From the IMG/VR virus record IMGVR_UViG_3300000116_009157, positions 1 through 25,225 of that record: a stretch of DNA of 25,225 nucleotides; one strand, 5' to 3'. Under the pieces are notes generated by a model that was not told the DNA's origin, searched no databases, and saw only the letters and a list, made by a program, of their open reading frames with translations. The translations under genes and the position numbers were made by a program. Positions 2,063-18,604 of the stretch are shown here, one piece after another. This DNA comes from a virus. How positions within the stretch are numbered: the first letter of the stretch is position 1; each line of letters opens with the position of its first letter.

Positions 2063-2509
2063 TTAATCGTTTATGCTGACTTCTATATTTTCATCAGCAA
2101 TGTTTTCTTTACTTACATCTATTAAAGCATCTAGATCTTGTTGAATAAAGTCTTTACCAACTAGTATCTTATATAAATTAGACGCTCTATTGCCAATTGA
2201 GAATGGAATACCGGTAAATTCTTTTTCACCAATTTTAAAATCTAATTCAACTACAGGTCTATGTTCCATATTACCTGCACCAACGTTAATTGTTATTTCA
2301 CCCTTCTTTGGAAGTAGTAGTGTTTTACCATTTATAGTTCGGAAGAAAACTTTATCACCCTGTTCTTGAATATCTTCCCCATGCAATACATTGTAAGCAC
2401 CGTTACCAGAATCTAATTTGGCAGGTACTTTACCGATACCTTGAATATCGAAAAATTCAATAAGTCCTAAAACAGACTTTTCTTGTATATATTGCAAAAA
2501 TGTTTTCAT
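2063..2509 (-). CDS. RimK-associated protease-like (retropepsin-fold) protein
   Basis: 148 residues. The core resembles the 'ATP-dependent zinc protease' family linked to RimK (Pfam Zn_protease, retropepsin-like fold): 'GKVPAKLDSGNGAYNVLHG' at 26-44 carries the aspartyl-protease-like DSG with a following His, then 'HRPVVELDFKIG' and 'ILVGKDFI', the counterpart of that family's 'LLGR.FL' ending. The usual DTGA/DSGA reads DSGN. The N-terminus 'MKTFLQYIQE' looks like a T4-type capsid-targeting peptide with an IxE cleavage site after residue 10. It is the last gene of the - strand cluster, 17 nt after the upstream gene and tail-to-tail with tRNA-Thr. No clear Shine-Dalgarno. Fold assignment is from motif resemblance only; activity unproven. 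Confidence 0.6.
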   Translation of the reverse strand: MKTFLQYIQEKSVLGLIEFFDIQGIGKVPAKLDSGNGAYNVLHGEDIQEQGDKVFFRTINGKTLLLPKKGEITINVGAGNMEHRPVVELDFKIGEKEFTGIPFSIGNRASNLYKILVGKDFIQQDLDALIDVSKENIADENIEVSIND

Positions 2510-2526
2510 GTTTAATTACTAAAGCA

Positions 2527-3123
2527 TTAGCATTCACCATCTTCTGCACCGCAATCATATTGACTAACATCTTCATGACCTGCATTAAACATTGATGAGT
2601 GTTCACCACTAGCAAAATCATAATCTAGTTTGTGAAAAACAGAACCAAGATAGTCTGCTGCTTTGGTAATCTTAGAAGCTGTCCACCCTTCTAGAGCTGG
2701 TAGCTCCTTCATCATAAGACTAAGAGCACCTGCATACTTTTCAATTTTATAGAGCTCAGCAAGAGCCATTTTCATTTCAGAATCATCATGATGATTTACT
2801 CGGGGCATATTTTCACCATCCTCCATTTCTTCATCACCAGCAAGTCTACTAATACCTCTATCAACCGCTTGACCAGCTTTATCTAAACCTTTTATAGCAG
2901 CTTTACCAGCACCCATTGCAGCTTTACCAGCGACCTTTAAACCTTCTTTACCCACCTCACCTGCAACAATAGCAGCTTCTTTACCAACTGCTTTAAGACC
3001 GCGTTTAGCTAAATTACCAATACCACCAGCAATTGCACCAAGACCTTCATCGATTGTATCTTCTTGCGAAATTTGTGAATAAGCTTCAGCAATTAAACTT
3101 GCATCATTAAGTTTAGACTTCAT
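2527..3123 (-). CDS. Ala/Gly/Lys-rich protein with conserved phage helical domain
   Basis: 198 residues, no enzyme motif seen. Three parts: an N-terminal leader with 'LIAEAYSQI' (candidate IxE cleavage after residue 13); residues 27-95, a low-complexity amphipathic stretch of Gly-Lys-Ala repeats; and residues 118-168, a compact helical segment ('LPALEGWTASKITKAADYLG') of a kind that recurs in small proteins of marine T4-like phages. The C-terminus is acidic and Cys-containing. The basic amphipathic middle after a cleavable leader suggests a DNA-associated internal head or scaffold-like protein, as inference. A late-promoter-like octamer lies 5 nt before the ATG, overlapping the stop of the preceding gene. 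Confidence 0.55.
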   Translation of the reverse strand: MKSKLNDASLIAEAYSQISQEDTIDEGLGAIAGGIGNLAKRGLKAVGKEAAIVAGEVGKEGLKVAGKAAMGAGKAAIKGLDKAGQAVDRGISRLAGDEEMEDGENMPRVNHHDDSEMKMALAELYKIEKYAGALSLMMKELPALEGWTASKITKAADYLGSVFHKLDYDFASGEHSSMFNAGHEDVSQYDCGAEDGEC

Positions 3124-3128
3124 GCATA

Positions 3129-3136
3129 TATTTATG
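3129..3136 (-). promoter_or_regulatory. late-promoter-like octamer (CATAAATA)
   Basis: On the - strand CATAAATA, one mismatch from the T4 late consensus TATAAATA, exactly 5 nt before the ATG at 3123. The same 5-nt spacing is seen before the genes starting at 4897, 6731 and 8032. It overlaps the preceding stop codon, and the region is AT-rich, so chance is possible. Confidence 0.4.
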
Positions 3137-3683
3137 CCGCCAGGATAGATTTTATAGCATCTTTATCCGTTTCAGATACCTCTTCTGGGACAAAATAATC
3201 AATTGCCTCATCTAAGTTATTAGCAATTAACTCTCTGGTCTTAGTACCTGAAATACCTTCTGCTTGTAATGGAATCTTTGTAACACTTACAAGAGGATAT
3301 TTATCAGCGTTCTTTTCAAAGTATGAATATCGCTTTACATCTTCATCTTTATCACCTGCACCTACAATAATTTCAACCTCTTTATTTTCATCTGCATAAT
3401 CATAAACAGACTTTACTGGAGATATAGGCGCTAACATAACTTCGACAGGCTTATTAGAATATTTTGCATAGATATCCCAAATTGCCTTTGATTGCTCAGC
3501 TGTAATACCGTTCCTGTCTTTATTACCAATTACAACAATACCTTTATCAGCGCTTTCTAAAAGATATAGAAATGCTGAGAAGTGACCTTTCGTGGGTGGC
3601 TTATAACCACCAGGCATAAGAGCTATTCTCTCTTTGTCTCTTAGGTGCTCTCCGTCTTCATAAAATTCTCTAAACGTTTTCAT
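3132..3683 (-). CDS. NMNAT-like/cytidylyltransferase-family nucleotidyltransferase
   Basis: 183 residues. The HxGH-type nucleotidyltransferase signature appears as 'MPGGYKPPTKGH' at 23-34 (T/HxGH box following a GGYKP strand), with 'VVIGNKDRNGIT' near 50 and 'VEIIVGAGDKDED' near 103, and the adenylate-binding 'ISGTKTREL' near 144 (the ISxTxxR box). The family transfers a nucleotidyl group onto a phosphate, as in NMN adenylyltransferase or phosphopantetheine adenylyltransferase; the substrate here cannot be told. It starts 'MKTFREF', like T4 internal proteins, but has only a weak candidate cleavage site. The start codon overlaps the upstream stop (ATGA), so it is translationally coupled to the ligase-motif protein. 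Fold is sure, substrate unknown. Confidence 0.78.
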   Translation of the reverse strand: MKTFREFYEDGEHLRDKERIALMPGGYKPPTKGHFSAFLYLLESADKGIVVIGNKDRNGITAEQSKAIWDIYAKYSNKPVEVMLAPISPVKSVYDYADENKEVEIIVGAGDKDEDVKRYSYFEKNADKYPLVSVTKIPLQAEGISGTKTRELIANNLDEAIDYFVPEEVSETDKDAIKSILAA

Positions 3684-4897
3684 TTGGTAATTGGGGTAGA
3701 TGTTTGACCTCCACTAAAGTTAGCTCTACTAAACTCTAAGCGATCAACCAGCTTAACTGCATCACCTTCTTTACCAACAGCAACATAACCTTCAGGATTA
3801 GAAGCGGTAAGAGTACCGTCACCATTATCTAAAAAGTGTTTAGTATTGTAAACAGCATTATTGTATTTGTTAACAAAAATTTGTTTAGCTTGAGATAAGA
3901 GTTTACTTATCTTAAATAAATTTATAATATCTTTTTGACGTGATTTAATATCGGCTAGCTTCTTTTTAAATGCTTCTGTAATTCGCTCTTTACCGGTTTT
4001 AGATTTACGCTTAGCAATTTCCTTTTCCATCCGACCTTTCATCCAGTTCATGAAGCCTTTATATGAACCTTCTGCATCATCTAAAAATTTACCTTCACGA
4101 ATCTCTGAGTTAGCATAAATGTTAAGTAAATCTAATGGAAGATCTTTATATTTGACCTTAATACCGTCAGCAGTCTTTGCTAAATCTCTAACTTGCTTAG
4201 CCTCATCCTTGGTAAGAGTAACTGTTCCTGTGGCATCAGTAAATACAGCATCATCAACCCATACACCTGGTACTTTATTAAGACCTTTCACATTGATACC
4301 GTATTGAGGTGGTGAGTTTAAATCACTATAACCTGTATGAAAAACAATACCAAACACAGAATTGGCAATTTCTTTACCAAGATCTGAGTCTGCTTCAACT
4401 GCATACTTAATAGTATTAGGTTTAAATGCGATATGCTTAACACCATCTTGCATTACTACCTCAAGCATCGATGAATCAAACATGAAATCCCCTTGTAAAA
4501 TGCCCTTAATACCTAATTTTGGAAGATATTTAAGAGCTTTCTTAAGTTTATCAGCAAGTCCTGGTGCATGTCCGTGATTCATCTCAACATCAGCATCAGT
4601 ATAGTTGATTTTAGGCTCATTATTAAAGATAGATTTAGTACCAACAAAGAATTTACCAGTTTCTGGGTGCTTTCCAGCAAAAATAGCAGGAGCTCCATCC
4701 CATTTCACTGAAGTATTGACACTTCTCTTGGATTTACCCTGTAATTTAGAGAGAAGGTTGCTAATCATGGTACGGGCCACGTCATATCCCTTCTCTCCCT
4801 TGGTTAAAACCAGTTCTTCTAGGTGAGTTAAGTGGGTATTAGCTTTAGCCTCAGTTAAAAGCTGTGAATCTAAATGAAATTGTTTAAAACTGCGCAT
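3680..4897 (-). CDS. Phage protein with ligase-type KxDG motif (DUF6267-like)
   Basis: 405 residues. It resembles a family of uncharacterised marine T4-like phage proteins (recalled as DUF6267; not checked). Residues 62-72 'TSVKWDGAPAI' carry KxDG, the motif I nucleotidyl-lysine site of covalent DNA/RNA ligases and capping enzymes (Lys65). 'GTKSIFN' near 86, 'GILQGDFMF' at 132-140 (motif III-like) and 'IAFKPNTI' at 156-163 (motif IV-like) follow in plausible order; a basic 'IKVKYKD' near 246 could be motif V. Residues 285-345 are Lys-rich and helical, perhaps RNA- or DNA-binding. The leader 'MRSFKQFHLDSQLLTE' ends in an LxE candidate cleavage site. Coupled (ATGA overlap) to the nucleotidyltransferase. 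Ligase-like chemistry is inference. Confidence 0.62.
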   Translation of the reverse strand: MRSFKQFHLDSQLLTEAKANTHLTHLEELVLTKGEKGYDVARTMISNLLSKLQGKSKRSVNTSVKWDGAPAIFAGKHPETGKFFVGTKSIFNNEPKINYTDADVEMNHGHAPGLADKLKKALKYLPKLGIKGILQGDFMFDSSMLEVVMQDGVKHIAFKPNTIKYAVEADSDLGKEIANSVFGIVFHTGYSDLNSPPQYGINVKGLNKVPGVWVDDAVFTDATGTVTLTKDEAKQVRDLAKTADGIKVKYKDLPLDLLNIYANSEIREGKFLDDAEGSYKGFMNWMKGRMEKEIAKRKSKTGKERITEAFKKKLADIKSRQKDIINLFKISKLLSQAKQIFVNKYNNAVYNTKHFLDNGDGTLTASNPEGYVAVGKEGDAVKLVDRLEFSRANFSGGQTSTPITK

Positions 4898-4902
4898 TTT
4901 CT

Positions 4903-4910
4903 TAATTATA
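4903..4910 (-). promoter_or_regulatory. late-promoter-like octamer (TATAATTA)
   Basis: On the - strand TATAATTA, one mismatch from TATAAATA, 5 nt before the ATG at 4897. An AAGGAA sequence is present but about 17 nt from the start, too far for a normal ribosome-binding site. Confidence 0.4.
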
Positions 4911-4921
4911 TCGGGGTTCCT

Positions 4922-5974
4922 TTAAAAATTAAACTTGAAATTAGGGTAGAAGTCGTTAATTGAGTAGTTTGAAGTTACAAGTTTTTCAGTATCAATTAAT
5001 CCACCACTACGAAGAGCCTCTTCACGCTTAAACATAGCGTAGTTTAACTTTGTCTTATCGATAAAAATAAAATCTTCGTAATTATATTTACGTGCATAGT
5101 TATCTAAATTAACTTTTGTTATAGCTTTGCGAATATCACCACGTACAACCTTAATGCCCTGTTTTGTACTCACACTATCATAATTAACTCCTTCTAGATA
5201 TTCCATATTGCTATATGGATAAGCAGATTTTAAACCTTGTTTAAGGTCATTAACGAACGAACTCTCTTTACCTTCCGCTTGATAAGCTTTATAAAGTTGG
5301 TGTATAATTCCTTCTAATGAAACCGCTTGAATCTCAGGAGGGTTACTTAAATTAGAAATAAGAGCATCGGTATCAAATTTAATACCTCCTCTACCAGCTT
5401 GTTGACCTAATCGACCACCTTGACCTTTTACTTCTAAGGCTTCACCACTAATAGATAAATCACCACCACCGACAGCGTTAGTTACATCAGAAAAGGTAAG
5501 AGCAAGAAGAACTTCACCCGGACCAACATTACTACCACCTTTATCAACTGGTGTAAACCTAGCAACTTTCTTTGCCAGCTTCTCACTCATACCGTTTTTA
5601 GAGGCTAAATTAATAATATTGTTAACTCTATTATCAGCTAATGTTGGTTTATTATCGGATTCAATGTAAGTTTCAAACTCACCATCATCAAGCAAGCTAA
5701 TAAGAGTTTCGAAATCATCTTCACCCTTAAATGAATCCTGAGAATAAAATTTATCATTAAGATAAGTTGTAATCATTCCAGAAGTATTTTTACCTGATGC
5801 AATTCTTTGAACTTTGCGGTAAATATCTTCTGGAACATCTCCTACAGGGCTATATTTCTCACCATCTTTTATGTATAAGGTTACATCCTCATAAAGATGC
5901 TCAAGCCTTTTGCGAGGAATATGGCACTCATTATTCGTGAGTATTTTCTTAGTATATATATCTTCTAATTGCAT
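4922..5974 (-). CDS. Protein with PD-(D/E)XK-nuclease-like motif set
   Basis: 350 residues. No named family recognised with certainty. Residues 151-188 show 'GPGEVLLALTF', then 'GGGDLSI' and 'EALEVKGQGGRLG': Glu154, Asp172 and Glu181-x-Lys183 are in the order and spacing of the PD-(D/E)XK nuclease core (helix Glu, strand Asp, E-x-K). The N-terminal third is acidic and mixed; the C-terminal part has 'GIKVVRGDIRKAI' and ends in an aromatic 'YPNFKFNF'. ATG at 5974 is preceded by AGGG 4 nt away, one of the few plausible ribosome-binding sites here. It sits between a small acidic gene and the KxDG protein, so nucleic-acid-active functions cluster. Nuclease activity is inferred from motif geometry only. 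Confidence 0.58.
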   Translation of the reverse strand: MQLEDIYTKKILTNNECHIPRKRLEHLYEDVTLYIKDGEKYSPVGDVPEDIYRKVQRIASGKNTSGMITTYLNDKFYSQDSFKGEDDFETLISLLDDGEFETYIESDNKPTLADNRVNNIINLASKNGMSEKLAKKVARFTPVDKGGSNVGPGEVLLALTFSDVTNAVGGGDLSISGEALEVKGQGGRLGQQAGRGGIKFDTDALISNLSNPPEIQAVSLEGIIHQLYKAYQAEGKESSFVNDLKQGLKSAYPYSNMEYLEGVNYDSVSTKQGIKVVRGDIRKAITKVNLDNYARKYNYEDFIFIDKTKLNYAMFKREEALRSGGLIDTEKLVTSNYSINDFYPNFKFNF

Positions 5975-5996
5975 ATCCCTACTATATAAATGCTAA

Positions 5997-6308
5997 TTAT
6001 GCTTGTTCAAGAGTATCTTTTAAATCTTCTGCACCAATTTGTACGATGCTTGCAATTGTACTAATAACGTTGTTTGGATCTTCATCAACCTTAGATTGTA
6101 AATCAACCGCCGTTTGTGCGGCACTAGCATCAGGCTCGTGTAAGAATGCTTTAAGAATAAGATCAGCTAAGAATATTTTACCTTCTGCAGAAACTGGCTC
6201 CGGAGCCGGTGGTTGCTCAGCAACATCTGTAGCATCAGCTTCCATCTCAGGCTCATCAGCTTCATTATAAATAGCTTCGTATTTCTTAAATATATTTAAA
6301 GTTTTCAT
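5997..6308 (-). CDS. Small acidic protein, unknown function
   Basis: 103 residues, strongly acidic and rich in Ala, Pro and Glu at 16-43 ('EPEMEADATDVAEQPPAPEP'), then a predicted helical half. No known domain recognised. The N-terminus 'MKTLNIFKKYEAIYNEA' resembles the capsid-targeting-like leaders of its neighbours, though the residue three before the candidate Glu is Tyr rather than Leu/Ile. It lies 6 nt after the preceding gene and 22 nt before the PD-(D/E)XK-like gene. An acidic scaffold- or internal-head-type role would fit; this is a guess from composition and position. Confidence 0.5.
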   Translation of the reverse strand: MKTLNIFKKYEAIYNEADEPEMEADATDVAEQPPAPEPVSAEGKIFLADLILKAFLHEPDASAAQTAVDLQSKVDEDPNNVISTIASIVQIGAEDLKDTLEQA

Positions 6309-6314
6309 ATTTTA

Positions 6315-6731
6315 CTAAATGGTTTTTAAAACACTGTTGAGCTGATCTGCAACTTTTGAATATACCTTACCTATTGAGCGCTCTATCTTCTTTTTAGGAT
6401 TTTGAAATTGCATACCCCTTCTAGGATTATTTGCCCCAACAATCTTCTCAGCGGCGCTAACAGCCATGCCGATCCGCTCCATGTTATCAGTAGCATTCAC
6501 CGCAGCACCATCAGCAGCTTCATTATCCTCTATCTCAACAAATTCCTTAACCTCTAATTTGACAATACGTCCATCAGGTAAATGAATCATTACATCCTCT
6601 GATCGTTGATCCACGTCACATTTAATATCTTTCTCCATTAAGCATCGCTGTAATGCTCTTTTCGCAGCAATTTTTTCATCCAAATTTAGATCTGGGGTGT
6701 TTTCTTCAATAAGATCAAGAAACTTACTCAT
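6315..6731 (-). CDS. Small phage protein, unknown function
   Basis: 138 residues. Begins 'MSKFLDLIEEN', with LIE/IEE as possible prohead-protease cleavage sites at 7-10. A central segment 'DVMIHLPDGRIVKLEVKEF' (45-63) looks like a small beta hairpin domain; the C-terminus 'NPKKKIERSIGKVYSKVADQL' is basic and helical. Not recognised as a named family. It starts 8 nt after the preceding gene and has a late-promoter-like ATTAAATA 5 nt before the ATG. Context suggests a late structural or internal protein. Confidence 0.55.
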   Translation of the reverse strand: MSKFLDLIEENTPDLNLDEKIAAKRALQRCLMEKDIKCDVDQRSEDVMIHLPDGRIVKLEVKEFVEIEDNEAADGAAVNATDNMERIGMAVSAAEKIVGANNPRRGMQFQNPKKKIERSIGKVYSKVADQLNSVLKTI

Positions 6732-6736
6732 GTTAA

Positions 6737-6744
6737 TATTTAAT
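6737..6744 (-). promoter_or_regulatory. late-promoter-like octamer (ATTAAATA)
   Basis: On the - strand ATTAAATA, 5 nt before the ATG at 6731. It is identical in sequence and spacing to the octamer before the gene starting at 8032, which argues a little against chance. It shares TAAATA with the T4 late consensus. Confidence 0.42.
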
Positions 6745-7207
6745 GTATTAGCGATAATTTAACGTTATTATTTTTAGTAAAGTTTTTCTCTAAAGCTGTG
6801 AGATTATATCTTTTAAGAAGTTTTTTAAACTTCTTCCAGCATATTTTACTGGTATCAACCGGTATATATGGGTAGTACATGCAATCTTCTTTAATAAAAT
6901 CTTCAAACGATTGTTCTCTTACAACTAGACGTGAGGGTAACGCACTAAATATAAGTTTAATAACCTTAAATTCGGCATTATCATCACTATAATTGTAATA
7001 GAAGCATTTTTTATTTTTTGATTGTGTGCAAATAAAAAATATTTGCATTAATATAAAATGTAAACTAAGCTGCTTTTTGTCTTTAGCAGAAATATTATAT
7101 AACTCCGCTTCAGTCAAGTAGTATTGATATTCATTGTAAGATATATCTAAATATGACCGTAAATTAACGTATTCTACGTCATTCGTTAGGTCAAAGTAGT
7201 TTTTCAT
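6740..7207 (-). CDS. Hypothetical protein, Lys/Tyr/Phe-rich
   Basis: 155 residues, not recognised. Basic, rich in Tyr, Lys, Asn and Phe, with a hydrophobic segment 'FILMQIFFICTQ' at 51-62 that is short for a membrane span, and a basic C-terminus ('WKKFKKLLKRYNLTALEKNF'). 'YLTEAEL' at 30-36 contains an LxE followed by Ala, but deeper in the chain than in the neighbours. It is more AT-rich than flanking genes, perhaps a recent acquisition. ATG at 7207 has AGG 9-11 nt upstream and a TATAATTA 11 nt upstream. Confidence 0.45.
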   Translation of the reverse strand: MKNYFDLTNDVEYVNLRSYLDISYNEYQYYLTEAELYNISAKDKKQLSLHFILMQIFFICTQSKNKKCFYYNYSDDNAEFKVIKLIFSALPSRLVVREQSFEDFIKEDCMYYPYIPVDTSKICWKKFKKLLKRYNLTALEKNFTKNNNVKLSLIH

Positions 7208-7236
7208 TACTAGTTACCTAATTATAAAGCTGTTCC

Positions 7237-7665
7237 TTATGATAACAATAGCTTTGGTGGATTTTTAGTAAACTTTACTTTACCTATACGTACATTTAGA
7301 ATACCATTATAGTAATCCTCACGTAATAATGCTTCTGACTGGAATTGATAGAAGGTTTCCATGTAAGCTAGCTCACTTTTAGTACCGCAACTACGAATTA
7401 TCTCAAATTTAAACTTATCCTTACCAATTTTTTCGATATCTGCATTTAACCTGTCCGATGATCCAGTATATGTCTTCCAGTCTGACTCCCCAACTATAAT
7501 TCTCTTACGTTTTTTACCTTTAAGTGGAGGTCTCCTAGTTTTCTTGACTATTTGCTTTTTACCGATATACTTCATATCGTTTGAAAGGTTTGTAATAATA
7601 TAAACAAACCCAAACGGTAACTCAGTTAACGACTCTTTGCAAGTCCAGTGTCCTAAATCAAGCAT
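7237..7665 (-). CDS. GIY-YIG endonuclease (SegE-like)
   Basis: 142 residues if started at ATG 7665, which overlaps the upstream stop by 8 nt (ATGCTTGA). An in-frame ATG at 7707 would add 14 residues but lies deep inside the upstream gene; 7665 is preferred. GIY-YIG landmarks (numbered from 7665): 'GFVYIITNL' near 19 (the GIY strand as VYI), 'MKYIGKKQI' near 30 (YIG), a Lys/Arg-rich loop near 40-56, 'DWKTYTGSS' near 61-69, 'FEIIRSC' near 85 and the catalytic-type Glu in 'LAYMETFYQF' near 102. The family cuts DNA with one metal ion; T4 Seg proteins are free-standing homing endonucleases of this fold. Placement inside a head-like cluster could mean homing or recruitment as an injected nuclease. 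Confidence 0.8.
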   Translation of the reverse strand: MLDLGHWTCKESLTELPFGFVYIITNLSNDMKYIGKKQIVKKTRRPPLKGKKRKRIIVGESDWKTYTGSSDRLNADIEKIGKDKFKFEIIRSCGTKSELAYMETFYQFQSEALLREDYYNGILNVRIGKVKFTKNPPKLLLS

Positions 7666-8032
7666 TATTAATTTCGTGGCAATCGCAGTGGGGGCAGTCG
7701 GGTCCACATTTACACTTACTTACTGGCATGCCACAACAAGCATCAGGACACATTTTTTCTTCTGCATTTTCTCCTTTTAAGAATAATTTATCTATATTTT
7801 TTTTCTTCCTATCCTTTTTATTAATCTTACCCACAGCACCCCTCCTAGTAGCAACCTTTTTACCTAGAGCTTTAGGCACTCTAGCATCACCTGGCGCATA
7901 AGAATCACTAGAATTAATATTAGTAGGAGAAAAACCACCATTACCACTACCAACACCTGCGTCACCGGCGGACATATCCTCTTGTAATATGCGTTTGAAG
8001 TAACGAGCAAATTTACCAGTTGATTTTTCCAT
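7658..8032 (-). CDS. Small structural-like protein with Cys-rich tail
   Basis: 124 residues. The leader 'KFARYFKRILQEDMSAGD' contains an LxE candidate cleavage site at 16-18. 'DSYAPGDARVPKALG' at 43-57 is a motif I associate with small proteins near head genes of marine T4-like phages (recalled, not searched). The middle is very basic ('KINKKDRKKK' near 69). The last 35 residues hold nine Cys and two His in CxxxCC, CxC and CxxC spacing ('CPDACCGMPVSKCKCGPDC'), a likely metal site. It is the first gene of the - strand cluster, divergent from uvsY across 21 nt, with a late-like ATTAAATA 5 nt before its ATG, and overlaps the GIY-YIG gene. Confidence 0.6.
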   Translation of the reverse strand: MEKSTGKFARYFKRILQEDMSAGDAGVGSGNGGFSPTNINSSDSYAPGDARVPKALGKKVATRRGAVGKINKKDRKKKNIDKLFLKGENAEEKMCPDACCGMPVSKCKCGPDCPHCDCHEINNA

Positions 8033-17045: not shown

Positions 17046-17345
17046 ATGGCCTCAAGTTATTTAGATAAACCAGAAGATGATAATACCCCGAAAGCACACC
17101 CAGCATTTAACAGAGGTAAACTAGCGAGTACTGTTTATTTCCTTAAGTTAATTAAAGGAACCGTTTCAGGTACGGATGTTGGCGAAGGTCAAATAGGCTC
17201 ACCGCAGATTGAAGCTGCGCGGCGCGCTATTCTACATCTATCTAGCGCGTTAACACACGCTAGCGGTAAGTCTACATACCTATCAAGCCAAGCAAAAGAA
17301 GCTATAGAGAAAGCTCATGCAGAGCTCGAGAAAATTAACGTTTAA
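17046..17345 (+). CDS. Small hypothetical protein after gene 43
   Basis: 99 residues from ATG 17046, chosen over an in-frame ATG at 16995 that lies inside gene 43; a GGAG 10 nt upstream of 17046 is a plausible ribosome-binding site. No family recognised. The N-terminus is polar ('YLDKPEDDNTPKAHPAF'), a middle part reads 'LASTVYFLKLIKGTVSGT', and the C-terminal third is alpha-helical and Ala-rich ('QAKEAIEKAHAELEKI'). Probably co-transcribed with gene 43. Its stop overlaps the stop of the convergent glycosyltransferase gene by 3 nt. Confidence 0.6.
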   Translation: MASSYLDKPEDDNTPKAHPAFNRGKLASTVYFLKLIKGTVSGTDVGEGQIGSPQIEAARRAILHLSSALTHASGKSTYLSSQAKEAIEKAHAELEKINV

Positions 17346-18604
17346 ATGTTACCCTCTATTGGATCACCAAATCCATGCTCTTTGCTTTGTGGCCATACAC
17401 GCCACTTAGCAATATCCTCATCTGTTTCAAACCACCTCCAGAGTTTGCAGTAACCATCCGGATCTGATTTAAGCTTTTTAATCTCTTCCGGATCCACATC
17501 TTGTCTAAATATTTCTTTTCCCTCAACGTTAAAGAACGCTACCGCCCAAAAAATGTAATCATCGTAAGGTACTTGATCGTAGCTTAGGTCTATGCAATAT
17601 TTAAATAAACTGATAAAGGAATCGTCATACTCTTGCTTACTAACATATTCCGGATTTGGGGGGTATAATCTATCTTGTGTATAGTGTTGAATTTTCTGAT
17701 CTCTAAATCTAACACCTGCATATTTTTCATAGTCATTTAAAGTACGTGATTTACCTAAGCCGTATTCATTCTCTTTTTTTGTAAACCTTTCATTATTGAT
17801 ACCTAATAATTTTCTTACTCGTTGATAAGATTTTTTATTATCATCTTGCCATGTCTTACTATCATCCCAGTGTTTAGTAGCAGCTTTTCTACCGTAGTGA
17901 TGCCATGCTATTAATTGATGTGGGTAGTATATATCATAACCGTGGGTAAATGCTCTAACGGCAATACTTATTTCTTCTCCATGAAAATACATTTCTGGGT
18001 CATGTTGAACATTTTTACTAAATGCACCATCGGTAAATGCAAAGTGTGCGGAATAAAATCGTCCCTTAATTGGACCTCCTAACCCTTTCCAATTAGGTAT
18101 TTCTTCCGGTATAGTATGTAATGGTCCCTCTTTTGCAAAAAAGTTATATGATAACATCCAAGGATCCAAATTAATAGGCTTACTCGTTTCAATATCATAT
18201 GCAGGTAAATAGCTAGTAATTAATGGTTTTGGAGAGCCATTAAGCTGCAGCCCTGCATACATATTTTTAAGTTTTGTATCCCAACCTTTTACAAACCGGT
18301 GATGTGAGTCTATTTGAAACGTAAACTTTTCATCGTTATAATGTTGCTGAATGAGATTTCTAGCCCAACACGCTCCTTTTGAATCATTATAATCTATATC
18401 GAGTATAGTAAACCTTGAATCATCAATATAATCATCTAAATTGTCCCACTCATCATCTTGTGAGTGTTGCCAGCAAATACAAATGTGTAATAAGTTTGGT
18501 TTATCAGCTTTAGAGAGTAGATCTTTTAATGTAGGTAATAACTCTTTATCCCGATATGCCGCTATTTGAACAAACACAGAACCATTTGTATAGGCATTCT
18601 TCAT
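17342..18604 (-). CDS. GlcNAc-transferase-like glycosyltransferase (GT60-like), copy 2
   Basis: 420 residues, resembling Pfam Glyco_tranf GlcNAc (Skp1-type). 'VFVQIAAYRDKELLPTLKDL' at 10-29 is the family's typical start, 'DSKGACWARNLIQ' at 74-86 its SxGvxxAR element, and 'FQIDSHHRFVKGWD' at 96-109 its DxD-like metal site (DSHH). 'HGEEISIAVRAFTHGYDIY' near 215 and 'WHHYGRK' near 240 complete the catalytic core; residues about 330-420 form a second, unassigned domain. It is a paralogue of the protein encoded at 23443-24699 (same motif order, shared 'LNDYEKYAG' and 'GYD'). Last gene of the - strand glycan island; no Shine-Dalgarno before its ATG, 34 nt after the preceding gene. Confidence 0.8.
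   Translation of the reverse strand: MKNAYTNGSVFVQIAAYRDKELLPTLKDLLSKADKPNLLHICICWQHSQDDEWDNLDDYIDDSRFTILDIDYNDSKGACWARNLIQQHYNDEKFTFQIDSHHRFVKGWDTKLKNMYAGLQLNGSPKPLITSYLPAYDIETSKPINLDPWMLSYNFFAKEGPLHTIPEEIPNWKGLGGPIKGRFYSAHFAFTDGAFSKNVQHDPEMYFHGEEISIAVRAFTHGYDIYYPHQLIAWHHYGRKAATKHWDDSKTWQDDNKKSYQRVRKLLGINNERFTKKENEYGLGKSRTLNDYEKYAGVRFRDQKIQHYTQDRLYPPNPEYVSKQEYDDSFISLFKYCIDLSYDQVPYDDYIFWAVAFFNVEGKEIFRQDVDPEEIKKLKSDPDGYCKLWRWFETDEDIAKWRVWPQSKEHGFGDPIEGNI

Follow-up and report, generated by a model that had tools for sequence, protein, structure and literature searches.

The window analysed here (IMG/VR virus record IMGVR_UViG_3300000116_009157, 25,225 bases at its full length) is a fragment of a T4-like phage, and PHROG matches on its plus strand identify uvsY, uvsW, a late sigma factor, gp47, gp46 and the gp43 polymerase. 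Ten genes, named below by their lower coordinate, lie on the minus strand at 2063-8032, and several of their products begin with short leaders that resemble those of the T4 internal proteins (IPs). From the sequences of the window and its relatives, this block is probably a head-cargo locus, whose products would be loaded by T4-type targeting leaders. The best-tagged genes are 2063 (a retropepsin-like protein), 3132 (a nucleotidyltransferase) and 3680 (a DUF6267 protein).

The six N-termini quoted in the original prediction were all located on the minus strand at their genes. They are MKTFLQYIQE in gene 2063 (2509-2480, next residue Lys), MKTFREFYED in gene 3132 (3683-3654, with Asp at residue 10), MRSFKQFHLDSQLLTE in gene 3680 (4897-4850, next residue Ala), MSKFLDLIEE in gene 6315 (6731-6702), the weak leader MKSKLNDASLIAE in gene 2527 (3123-3085, next residue Ala) and a propeptide-like N-terminus, MEKSTGKFARYFKRILQE, in gene 7658 (8032-7979). 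A seventh leader, absent from the original prediction, is MKTLNIFKKYEAIYNE in gene 5997 (6308-6261), again followed by Ala. The leaders of 2063, 3132 (in its targeting part) and 3680 were graded as strong and those of 6315 and 5997 as fair; in gene 2527 the site IAE/A (a slash marks a presumed cut) is present and residues 4 and 7 are not aromatic. No leader of T4 type was seen in genes 4922, 6740 and 7237.

Chance occurrence was assessed by permuting residues 2-28 within the ten cluster proteins (20,000 shuffles). Phe, Tyr or Leu stands at both residues 4 and 7 in six of the ten, a number reached by 0 of the 20,000 shuffles; Phe or Tyr at both positions is found in three (reached by 2 shuffles) and a looser aromatic-plus-[ILMV]xE pattern in four (reached by 96). 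Gene 6740 counts among the six, yet the pattern is not kept in its relatives. Among the window proteins beyond the cluster, 1/15 has Phe, Tyr or Leu at both positions and 0/15 has Phe or Tyr (Fisher 0.007 and 0.052, respectively). When residues 2-10 were scored with BLOSUM62 against the T4 IPI and IPII/III leaders, genes 2063, 3132 and 3680 reached 24, 26 and 17 and the other seven cluster proteins at most 12; as a reference, 167 proteins of cyanophage S-CREM2 not reported in virions gave a 99th percentile of 14 and a maximum of 24.

Relatives were drawn from 63 IMG/VR loci found through DUF6267 and 25 found through the nucleotidyltransferase (the two sets overlap), together with four phage records. 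Relatives whose N-terminus did not align were left out of the N-terminus counts (20 for DUF6267, 21 for 2527, 11 for 4922, 26 for the GIY-YIG gene 7237, 8 for 6740, 4 for the nucleotidyltransferase and 1 each for 5997, 6315 and 7658); the DUF6267 counts still contain a few misaligned or leaderless sequences, and codon-level counts (residues 4, 7 and 10) were taken over distinct 60-base gene starts. Leaders not conserved in relatives had been named in the original prediction as a ground for giving it up; those of 2063, 3132 and 3680 are conserved. Residue 4 is Phe in 24/24 distinct sequences of the protease, 21/21 of the nucleotidyltransferase and 28/31 of DUF6267, and residue 7 is aromatic (Phe or Tyr) in 24/24, 21/21 and 28/31, respectively. 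More than one codon is used at each of these two positions, with synonymous as well as Phe/Tyr changes. Residues 2, 3, 5 and 6 are more variable, with the exception of residue 5, which is Lys in 28/31 DUF6267 sequences. Residue 10 is Glu in 22/24 proteases, and in the nucleotidyltransferase it is Asp in 12/21 and Glu in 2/21. The leader ends with [IL]xE in 16/17 sequences for 2063, 19/23 for 3680 and 0/17 for 3132.

According to the accessible part of PMC9026906, targeting by the T4 IPIII leader depends on residues 4 and 7 and its processing on residues 8 and 10; with Asp at residue 10 the protein is no longer processed but is still targeted. Judged residue by residue, the leaders of 2063, 3132 and 3680 obey this targeting rule. 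The nucleotidyltransferase should be packaged but remain uncut, because most of its relatives carry a residue other than Glu at position 10 and Asp10 behaves in this way in IPIII. The DUF6267 leader has the layout of T4 IPI, namely an aromatic start, a spacer and TE/A (T4 leaders were taken from the T4 record). It can be seen that the proposal of six T4-type leaders stands for 2063, 3132 and 3680, with 6315 as a fair case; it fails for 7658, which carries a copy of a capsid-protein junction, and is unproven for 2527.

The bodies behind the best leaders had been described as a nucleotidyltransferase, a ligase-like protein and a retropepsin-like protein, and profiles, motifs and fold comparison bear this out, the ligase fold being probable. 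Gene 2063 (2063..2509, minus strand, like all genes of the block) encodes the protease. PF05618 matched 12/12 members of its lineage alignment at E <= 0.01 (best 1.4e-10), the window protein alone scoring 20.8 of 27 bits, under the curated cut-off. The protease profile matched 9g58 in the PDB with E 9.7e-8, and in the 12 alignment rows F4 and D33-S34-G35 (the DSG at 2413-2405) are invariant. It shares DSG, profile matches and 9g58 with the PF05618 retropepsin-like family (putative ATP-dependent zinc proteases), from which it differs in being phage-borne and in having a 10-residue leader. Gene 3132 (3132..3683) encodes an NMNAT/cytidylyltransferase-like protein that matches phrog_395 over residues 13-174 (5.1e-8). 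A Pfam search gave no match, and the best PDB profile matches, NMNAT and PPAT, were weak (E 0.042). In the lineage alignment (n=12) G33, H34 and R150 are invariant and I144, S145 and T149 are kept in at least 90%, residues that we take to form [HT]xGH and ISxTxxR-type motifs.

Gene 3680 (3680..4897) is a full-length member of DUF6267 (PF19782, 3.3e-93; phrog_455, T4-GC71), but it bears a leader, unlike the members in cyanophages S-SM1, S-CRM01 and S-PM2. Its KWDG (4705-4694) corresponds to a KxDG adenylation motif in which K65, D67 and G68 are invariant in 22/22 rows. An AlphaFold2 model (predicted local distance difference test, pLDDT, 76.7; predicted template modelling score, pTM, 0.66) was closest, among solved structures, to RNA editing ligase 1 (Z 6.5) and tRNA ligase Trl1 (6.3), along with archaeal RNA ligases and DNA ligases. 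RNA or DNA ligases fill the first 27 rows of the fold comparison, at Z 5.2-6.5 with none at 8, and middling Z values are common for the method. Foldseek gave T4 RNA ligase 1 as the best match (E 0.038, probability 0.13). The sequence profile searched against the PDB returned no ligase, unlike the fold comparison. On account of the fold matches and the KxDG motif, DUF6267 is likely to be a ligase-superfamily enzyme; no mention of DUF6267 was found in the open-access papers searched.

Leaders and sites recur in fused proteins. DUF6267 stands behind an upstream part in 12 reading frames (10 distinct). This part contains a YPGRFQPM stretch in 10 of the 12, the other two being cut by a contig end, and L[LI]TEAKANTH directly precedes DUF6267 in all 12. 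Two fusions were scanned; in both, the part in front of DUF6267 matched phrog_395 (1.3e-5 and 4.8e-5) and, weakly and below the cut-off, Pfam CTP_transf_like. Complete fusions begin with a different short start, e.g. MKTLGHxIIEQML or MNLGKQIVQDLIFE. At another locus (L057) DUF6267 comes first and the nucleotidyltransferase second, with a single front leader and LIAE/D between the parts; at a further one (L035) the nucleotidyltransferase leader fronts an extended protein; and phrog_455 itself unites a DUF6267 part with a cytidylyltransferase part. By their sequence, these fusions resemble polyproteins whose parts are separated by protease sites.

In gene 7658 (7658..8032) we read not an IP-type leader but a copy, about 40 residues long, of the major capsid protein gp23 around its presumed cleavage site. 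The protein comprises MEKSTGKFARYFKRILQE, a mature-gp23-like N-terminus (7987-7865), a basic stretch and a Cys-rich tail, and its residues 16-56, LQEDMSAGDAGVGSGNGGFSPTNINSSDSYAPGDARVPKAL, align with gp23 of the lineage directly after the presumed cut. Local alignment with gp23 of the related records G004 and G003 scored 82 and 76 (best of 300 shuffles 52 and 47), and the match to the gp23 at locus L121 was 58% over 43 residues in a small database. The G003 protein of the 7658 type scored 125 against its own gp23 (best shuffle 57), the G004 equivalent 65 (47), and S-CREM2 gp160 95 (45); gene 121 of S-CRM01 scored 96 (39) against S-CREM2 gp23. A candidate junction mimic in Melnitz, at 41, fell inside the shuffle range (maximum 48), as did two cross-phage comparisons with S-PM2 gp23 (40 vs 43 and 42 vs 49). 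S-CREM2 gp160 is listed in virions with 7 unique peptides in the accessible part of PMC10665884. Since 7658 carries a copy of the gp23 cleavage junction, its N-terminus would look, after cutting, like that of the mature capsid protein. The Cys-rich tail at its C-terminus, CPDACCGMPVSKCKCGPDCPHCDC, lies behind the basic stretch and possibly binds metal.

The prohead protease (PF03420) was found in 8/16 records (4/12 IMG/VR records), among them G002, which has 98% identity to the window in DUF6267; gp23 was found in 6/16. Among 80 loci of the wider lineage, 69 gave a gp23 segment after LLENQ and 11 none, leaving 66 distinct segments. C[IL]xE stands at the presumed cleavage site, which was placed by position, in 47 of the 66, the next residue being Ala in 29. 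The site reads CIEE/A in G003 and CFE/Q in G004.

The original prediction knew of no described packaged set of ligase and nucleotidyltransferase; as to nucleotidyltransferases, cyanophage papers do report such enzymes in virions, with a carry-over caveat attached. Sullivan et al. report the cytidylyltransferase T4-GC190 from S-SM1 virions (PMC3037559, accessible part), with the N-terminus MKKFSAFLNE/A, and the S-SCSM1 virion proteome includes an NMNAT (PMC9602691, accessible part), with the N-terminus MKSFLQFLKE/A. Table 3 of the S-CREM2 paper (PMC10665884) lists a cytidylyltransferase (MKNFSSFLTE/A), an S-adenosylmethionine (SAM) hydrolase (MKDFDSFLEE/F), a kinase (MKRFDAFLTE/E), a Cas9-like protein and hypothetical proteins, two of which start MKDLHSFLTE/Q and MQTFSMFFSE/D. 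The Cas9-like protein, gp12 (L111 7704-10313, minus strand), has an internal leader-like RFASFMAE/A at residues 18-26. The three nucleotidyltransferases of the Kyanoviridae phages S-SM1, S-SCSM1 and S-CREM2 resemble that of the window in matching phrog_395 (at 2.4e-59 to 5.9e-129, vs 5.1e-8 for the window) and in their aromatic-rich leaders; these have LNE, LKE or LTE in front of Ala and are predicted to be cut, whereas the leader of the window enzyme ends with YED. Among the open-access papers listed by the searches, none was found that names the leader as the cause of cyanophage enzyme packaging.

In S-CREM2 the pattern [FY]xxF[ILMVF]xE within the first 16 residues is found in 4 of 219 proteins, namely the SAM hydrolase, the kinase, the cytidylyltransferase and gp136, all of them virion-detected and non-structural (4/28 vs 0/167 undetected, p 3.5e-4); within the first 30 residues the counts are 5/28 vs 1/167. 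A T4-leader score of at least 18 is reached by five S-CREM2 proteins, of which four were detected in virions. With a profile of the window-lineage leaders, the top 10 proteins hold 4 of the 28 (p 0.026) and the top 20 hold 5 (p 0.11). Five looser patterns gave p 0.0017-0.028, also matching 3-12 of the 167 undetected proteins. Bare [IL]xE was rejected as evidence: it is too common, occurring within the first 16 residues in 33/219 S-CREM2 proteins (8/28 of the non-structural or unknown virion proteins, 5/24 of the structural ones and 20/167 of those undetected; p 0.027), with p 0.064 for the first 30 residues.

Several points weigh against a head-cargo locus. The virion mass spectrometry behind it comes only from related cyanophages, outside the lineage of the window, and their authors call carry-over into virion preparations, through CsCl, possible (accessible parts of PMC10665884 and PMC9602691). 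With the window nucleotidyltransferase, tblastn reached Flavobacterium phage immuto alone, so that the cyanophage enzymes are tied to it only distantly, and DUF6267 of S-SM1, S-CRM01 and S-PM2 is leaderless, so packaging of the family is not general. The S-CREM2 pattern was written after the leaders had been seen, which makes its p values exploratory; 23 of the 28 virion non-structural or unknown proteins are without it over their first 30 residues (tail proteins may account for many of these), and the window-lineage profile gave no overall separation of S-CREM2 virion proteins (Mann-Whitney p 0.25). A fresh test of the fixed pattern on S-SCSM1 returned two annotated genes, one of them virion-flagged, and four further virion-flagged proteins of the S-SCSM1 NMNAT block are without the motif at the N-terminus. 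The remaining 19 of the 66 gp23 segments, mostly C[FMV]E or similar and G004 among them, are without C[IL]xE, and no PF03420 match was obtained in the window, as may be expected of a 25-kb fragment.

An alternative is that the N-termini serve another purpose, e.g. as an early-translation or complex-docking helix, and that the enzymes detected in cyanophage virions are abundant proteins carried over. Besides the carry-over named by the cyanophage authors, it is favoured by the fact that leader cutting is predicted only, and possibly leaderless mRNAs could constrain the start region in another way. However, the constraint falls on amino acids 4 and 7 across synonymous and Phe/Tyr codon changes, and the T4-like pattern within the first 16 residues marks four S-CREM2 virion proteins and none of the 167 undetected ones. 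Such a purpose seems very improbable.

A narrower form of cargo deserves more weight, in which targeting sequences would bring in 2063, 3132 and 3680 and mimicry of the capsid would bring in 7658, with 2527, 4922 and 6315 as ordinary proteins of the cytoplasm; we place its likelihood somewhat short of even. Among the relatives of 2527 (2527..3123), residues 4 and 7 are aromatic in 0/9 distinct N-termini, and genes 4922 and 6740 are leaderless. In the relatives of 6740 (6740..7207), which served as an internal control, Phe or Tyr at both residues 4 and 7 occurs in 0/17 and the looser [FYL]xx[FYL] in 9/17. On the other hand, 2527 keeps [IL]xE within residues 6-24 in 9/9 and sits between two tagged genes, and the virion-flagged S-SCSM1 gp089 begins, by eye, with a similar LSEAY stretch. 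For 6315 (6315..6731), distinct N-termini have Phe4 in 8/8, Leu7 in 8/8 and [IL]xE in 6/8. Gene 5997 (5997..6308) encodes a small acidic protein, and its 21 distinct relatives have [FYL]xx[FYL] in residues 3-14 in 21/21 and [IL]xE in 14/21.

Taken together, these results favour a head-cargo locus, and for the phage of the window we infer packaging, cutting and ejection as follows. Three products (retropepsin-like, nucleotidyltransferase and ligase-like), and probably those of 5997 and 6315 as well, would be brought by their leaders to the core of the prohead; a gp21-type protease would then cut after [IL]xE; and the cargo would leave the head together with the DNA. The likeness to T4 IPI, IPII, IPIII and the ADP-ribosyltransferase Alt lies in a leader of 10-19 residues with aromatic residues 4 and 7 and an IxE/LxE end, in unrelated bodies behind it, and in a gp21-type protease in relatives. 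Among the differences from the T4 IPs, one window leader seems to serve for targeting but to stay uncut, and one protein has a gp23-junction copy in its place. T4 IP1-3 inhibit restriction enzymes, whereas the window bodies are ligase-like, nucleotidyltransferase and retropepsin-like.

The proteins may be truly targeted to the capsid and yet serve head assembly or DNA condensation rather than act on the host. Several bodies are small and show no enzyme motif, 7658 bears the copy of a capsid junction, and T4 head assembly is slowed in IPIII mutants (accessible part of PMC9026906). Nevertheless, the DSG, KxDG and nucleotidyltransferase signatures are kept in three bodies across diverged sequences and the slot upstream of DUF6267 varies between relatives, and a role confined to the head appears unlikely. 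As to an action on the host, the leading guess, still a doubtful one, is that the cargo counters host defence in the first minutes, with the NMNAT-like enzyme restoring NAD+, the ligase-like protein resealing nicked tRNA or DNA and the protease acting on a host protein. It leads because T4 internal proteins block restriction enzymes (accessible parts of PMC3012670 and PMC12373910) and head packaging has been proposed for ADP-ribose and NAD enzymes of myoviruses (accessible part of PMC9503650). What these polyvalent and head-packaged myovirus enzymes have in common with the window set is the idea that enzymes are carried in heads and injected; in PMC9503650 packaging is derived from a head-protein fusion and gene neighbourhood, whereas in the window it is read from a targeting leader.

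T4 capsid targeting is already known as a general kind of system, and so are packaged phage nucleotidyltransferases. As far as searched, no description was found of leaders carried by a ligase-like DUF6267 protein and by a retropepsin, of fusions containing LLTE/A or LIAE/D as an internal site, of an Asp10 nucleotidyltransferase leader or of the gp23 copy in 7658. It is conceivable, though we would not yet favour it, that marine T4-like phages have a general locus for injected effectors, in which entry into the head depends on a portable leader rather than on the body and the leader is passed on to further enzymes (ligase-like, NMNAT-like, retropepsin, SAM hydrolase, kinase, Cas9-like), in which fused cargo is a polyprotein with internal protease sites, and in which 7658 and S-CREM2 gp160, each retaining the capsid cleavage junction of its own phage as a copy, are a capsid-anchored or decoy component. 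If the leaders act in this way, packaged effectors could be read directly from the genomes of marine T4-like phages, and three enzyme classes would be named as candidates for first-minute host takeover or anti-defence. The leader also offers a testable reason for the recurrence of nucleotidyltransferases, kinases and a SAM hydrolase in cyanophage virion proteomes, enzymes that the authors of those proteomes were unable to distinguish from carry-over; whether leaders are cut could be decided from mass spectra that already exist.

The slot upstream of DUF6267 is occupied in the window by gene 4922 (4922..5974), which has no aromatic leader. Across relatives this slot holds very different proteins with a common motif-like core and a rough start MQWSLEKIY...P.R..L..L.E. 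The motif-like residues Glu154, Gly171-Asp172 and Glu181-x-Lys183, which form a PD-(D/E)XK-like motif, are invariant in 13/13 rows of an alignment that excludes the protein of locus L081, not clearly related. A fold search with a structure model of 4922 gave no meaningful match. Gene 7237 (7237..7665), which overlaps 7658, encodes a GIY-YIG endonuclease of the SegE type (PF19835 7.8e-32). Its start was set at the ATG common to relatives, which begin MLDLGHW or similar, and 0/9 of them have aromatics at residues 4 and 7.

A late-promoter-like CATAAATA ends 5 bases upstream of the 2527 ATG; with five [ACGT]ATAAATA matches on the window's minus strand, this one included, it is weak alone. The same motif or a similar one stands 5-8 bases before several genes in the head/tail region of G003 and G004, and TATAAT lies within about 30 bases upstream of several start codons of plus-strand genes in the window. 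A scan for sigma-70-type promoters gave 30 sites vs 29.4 in shuffles, i.e. no excess. Because the promoter-like motifs leave little room for a ribosome site, the mRNAs may be leaderless.

Relatives of DUF6267 occur in 455 phage records, the majority of them cyanophages. With the window nucleotidyltransferase as the tblastn query, 4 records were found, every one of Flavobacterium phage immuto. Immuto (L004) carries at 6321-22958 proteins with the common N-termini MKKSELVKLIKEEL, MKKSQLREIIRKEL and MKKSQLRQIIKEAL, and a second set with MENFDLKKFLVENKLTTN, MADNFNLRSFLTENKLTKN and MENTFDLKKFLVENKLTNN; these repeated N-termini look like lineage-specific forms of the same address label. The window protease as query gave a single weak match, MT647606.1 3378-3746 in Pelagibacter phage Mosig, annotated 'putative glutathione synthetase', where the protease is perhaps fused to an ATP-grasp protein or perhaps misnamed as one. 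The near relative G002 has at 17307-18038 (L103) an extra gene beyond the protease, with the leader MINFKTFFES, where the window has two tRNA genes. By eye its start resembles that of S-CREM2 gp156, which is virion-listed and has a nucleotidyltransferase match, but unlike gp156 the G002 protein gave no nucleotidyltransferase match in Pfam.

A recurring start, about [LM]xEAYxxV, is shared by eye by 2527, S-SCSM1 gp089 and an HTVC008M protein (L001 13486, MTRYTKTMAEAY). The other S-SCSM1 match to the fixed pattern, gp030 (44215-44535), starts MKTFKQFMSE; it is a hypothetical protein of 106 residues that lies between two virion-flagged genes and is itself unflagged. For T4 Alt, C-terminal processing has been reported as well (accessible part of PMC9026906), and the virion-flagged S-SCSM1 gp279 (L194 12627-12836), 69 residues long, has a leader-like TFKEFLEYIE at its C-terminal end.

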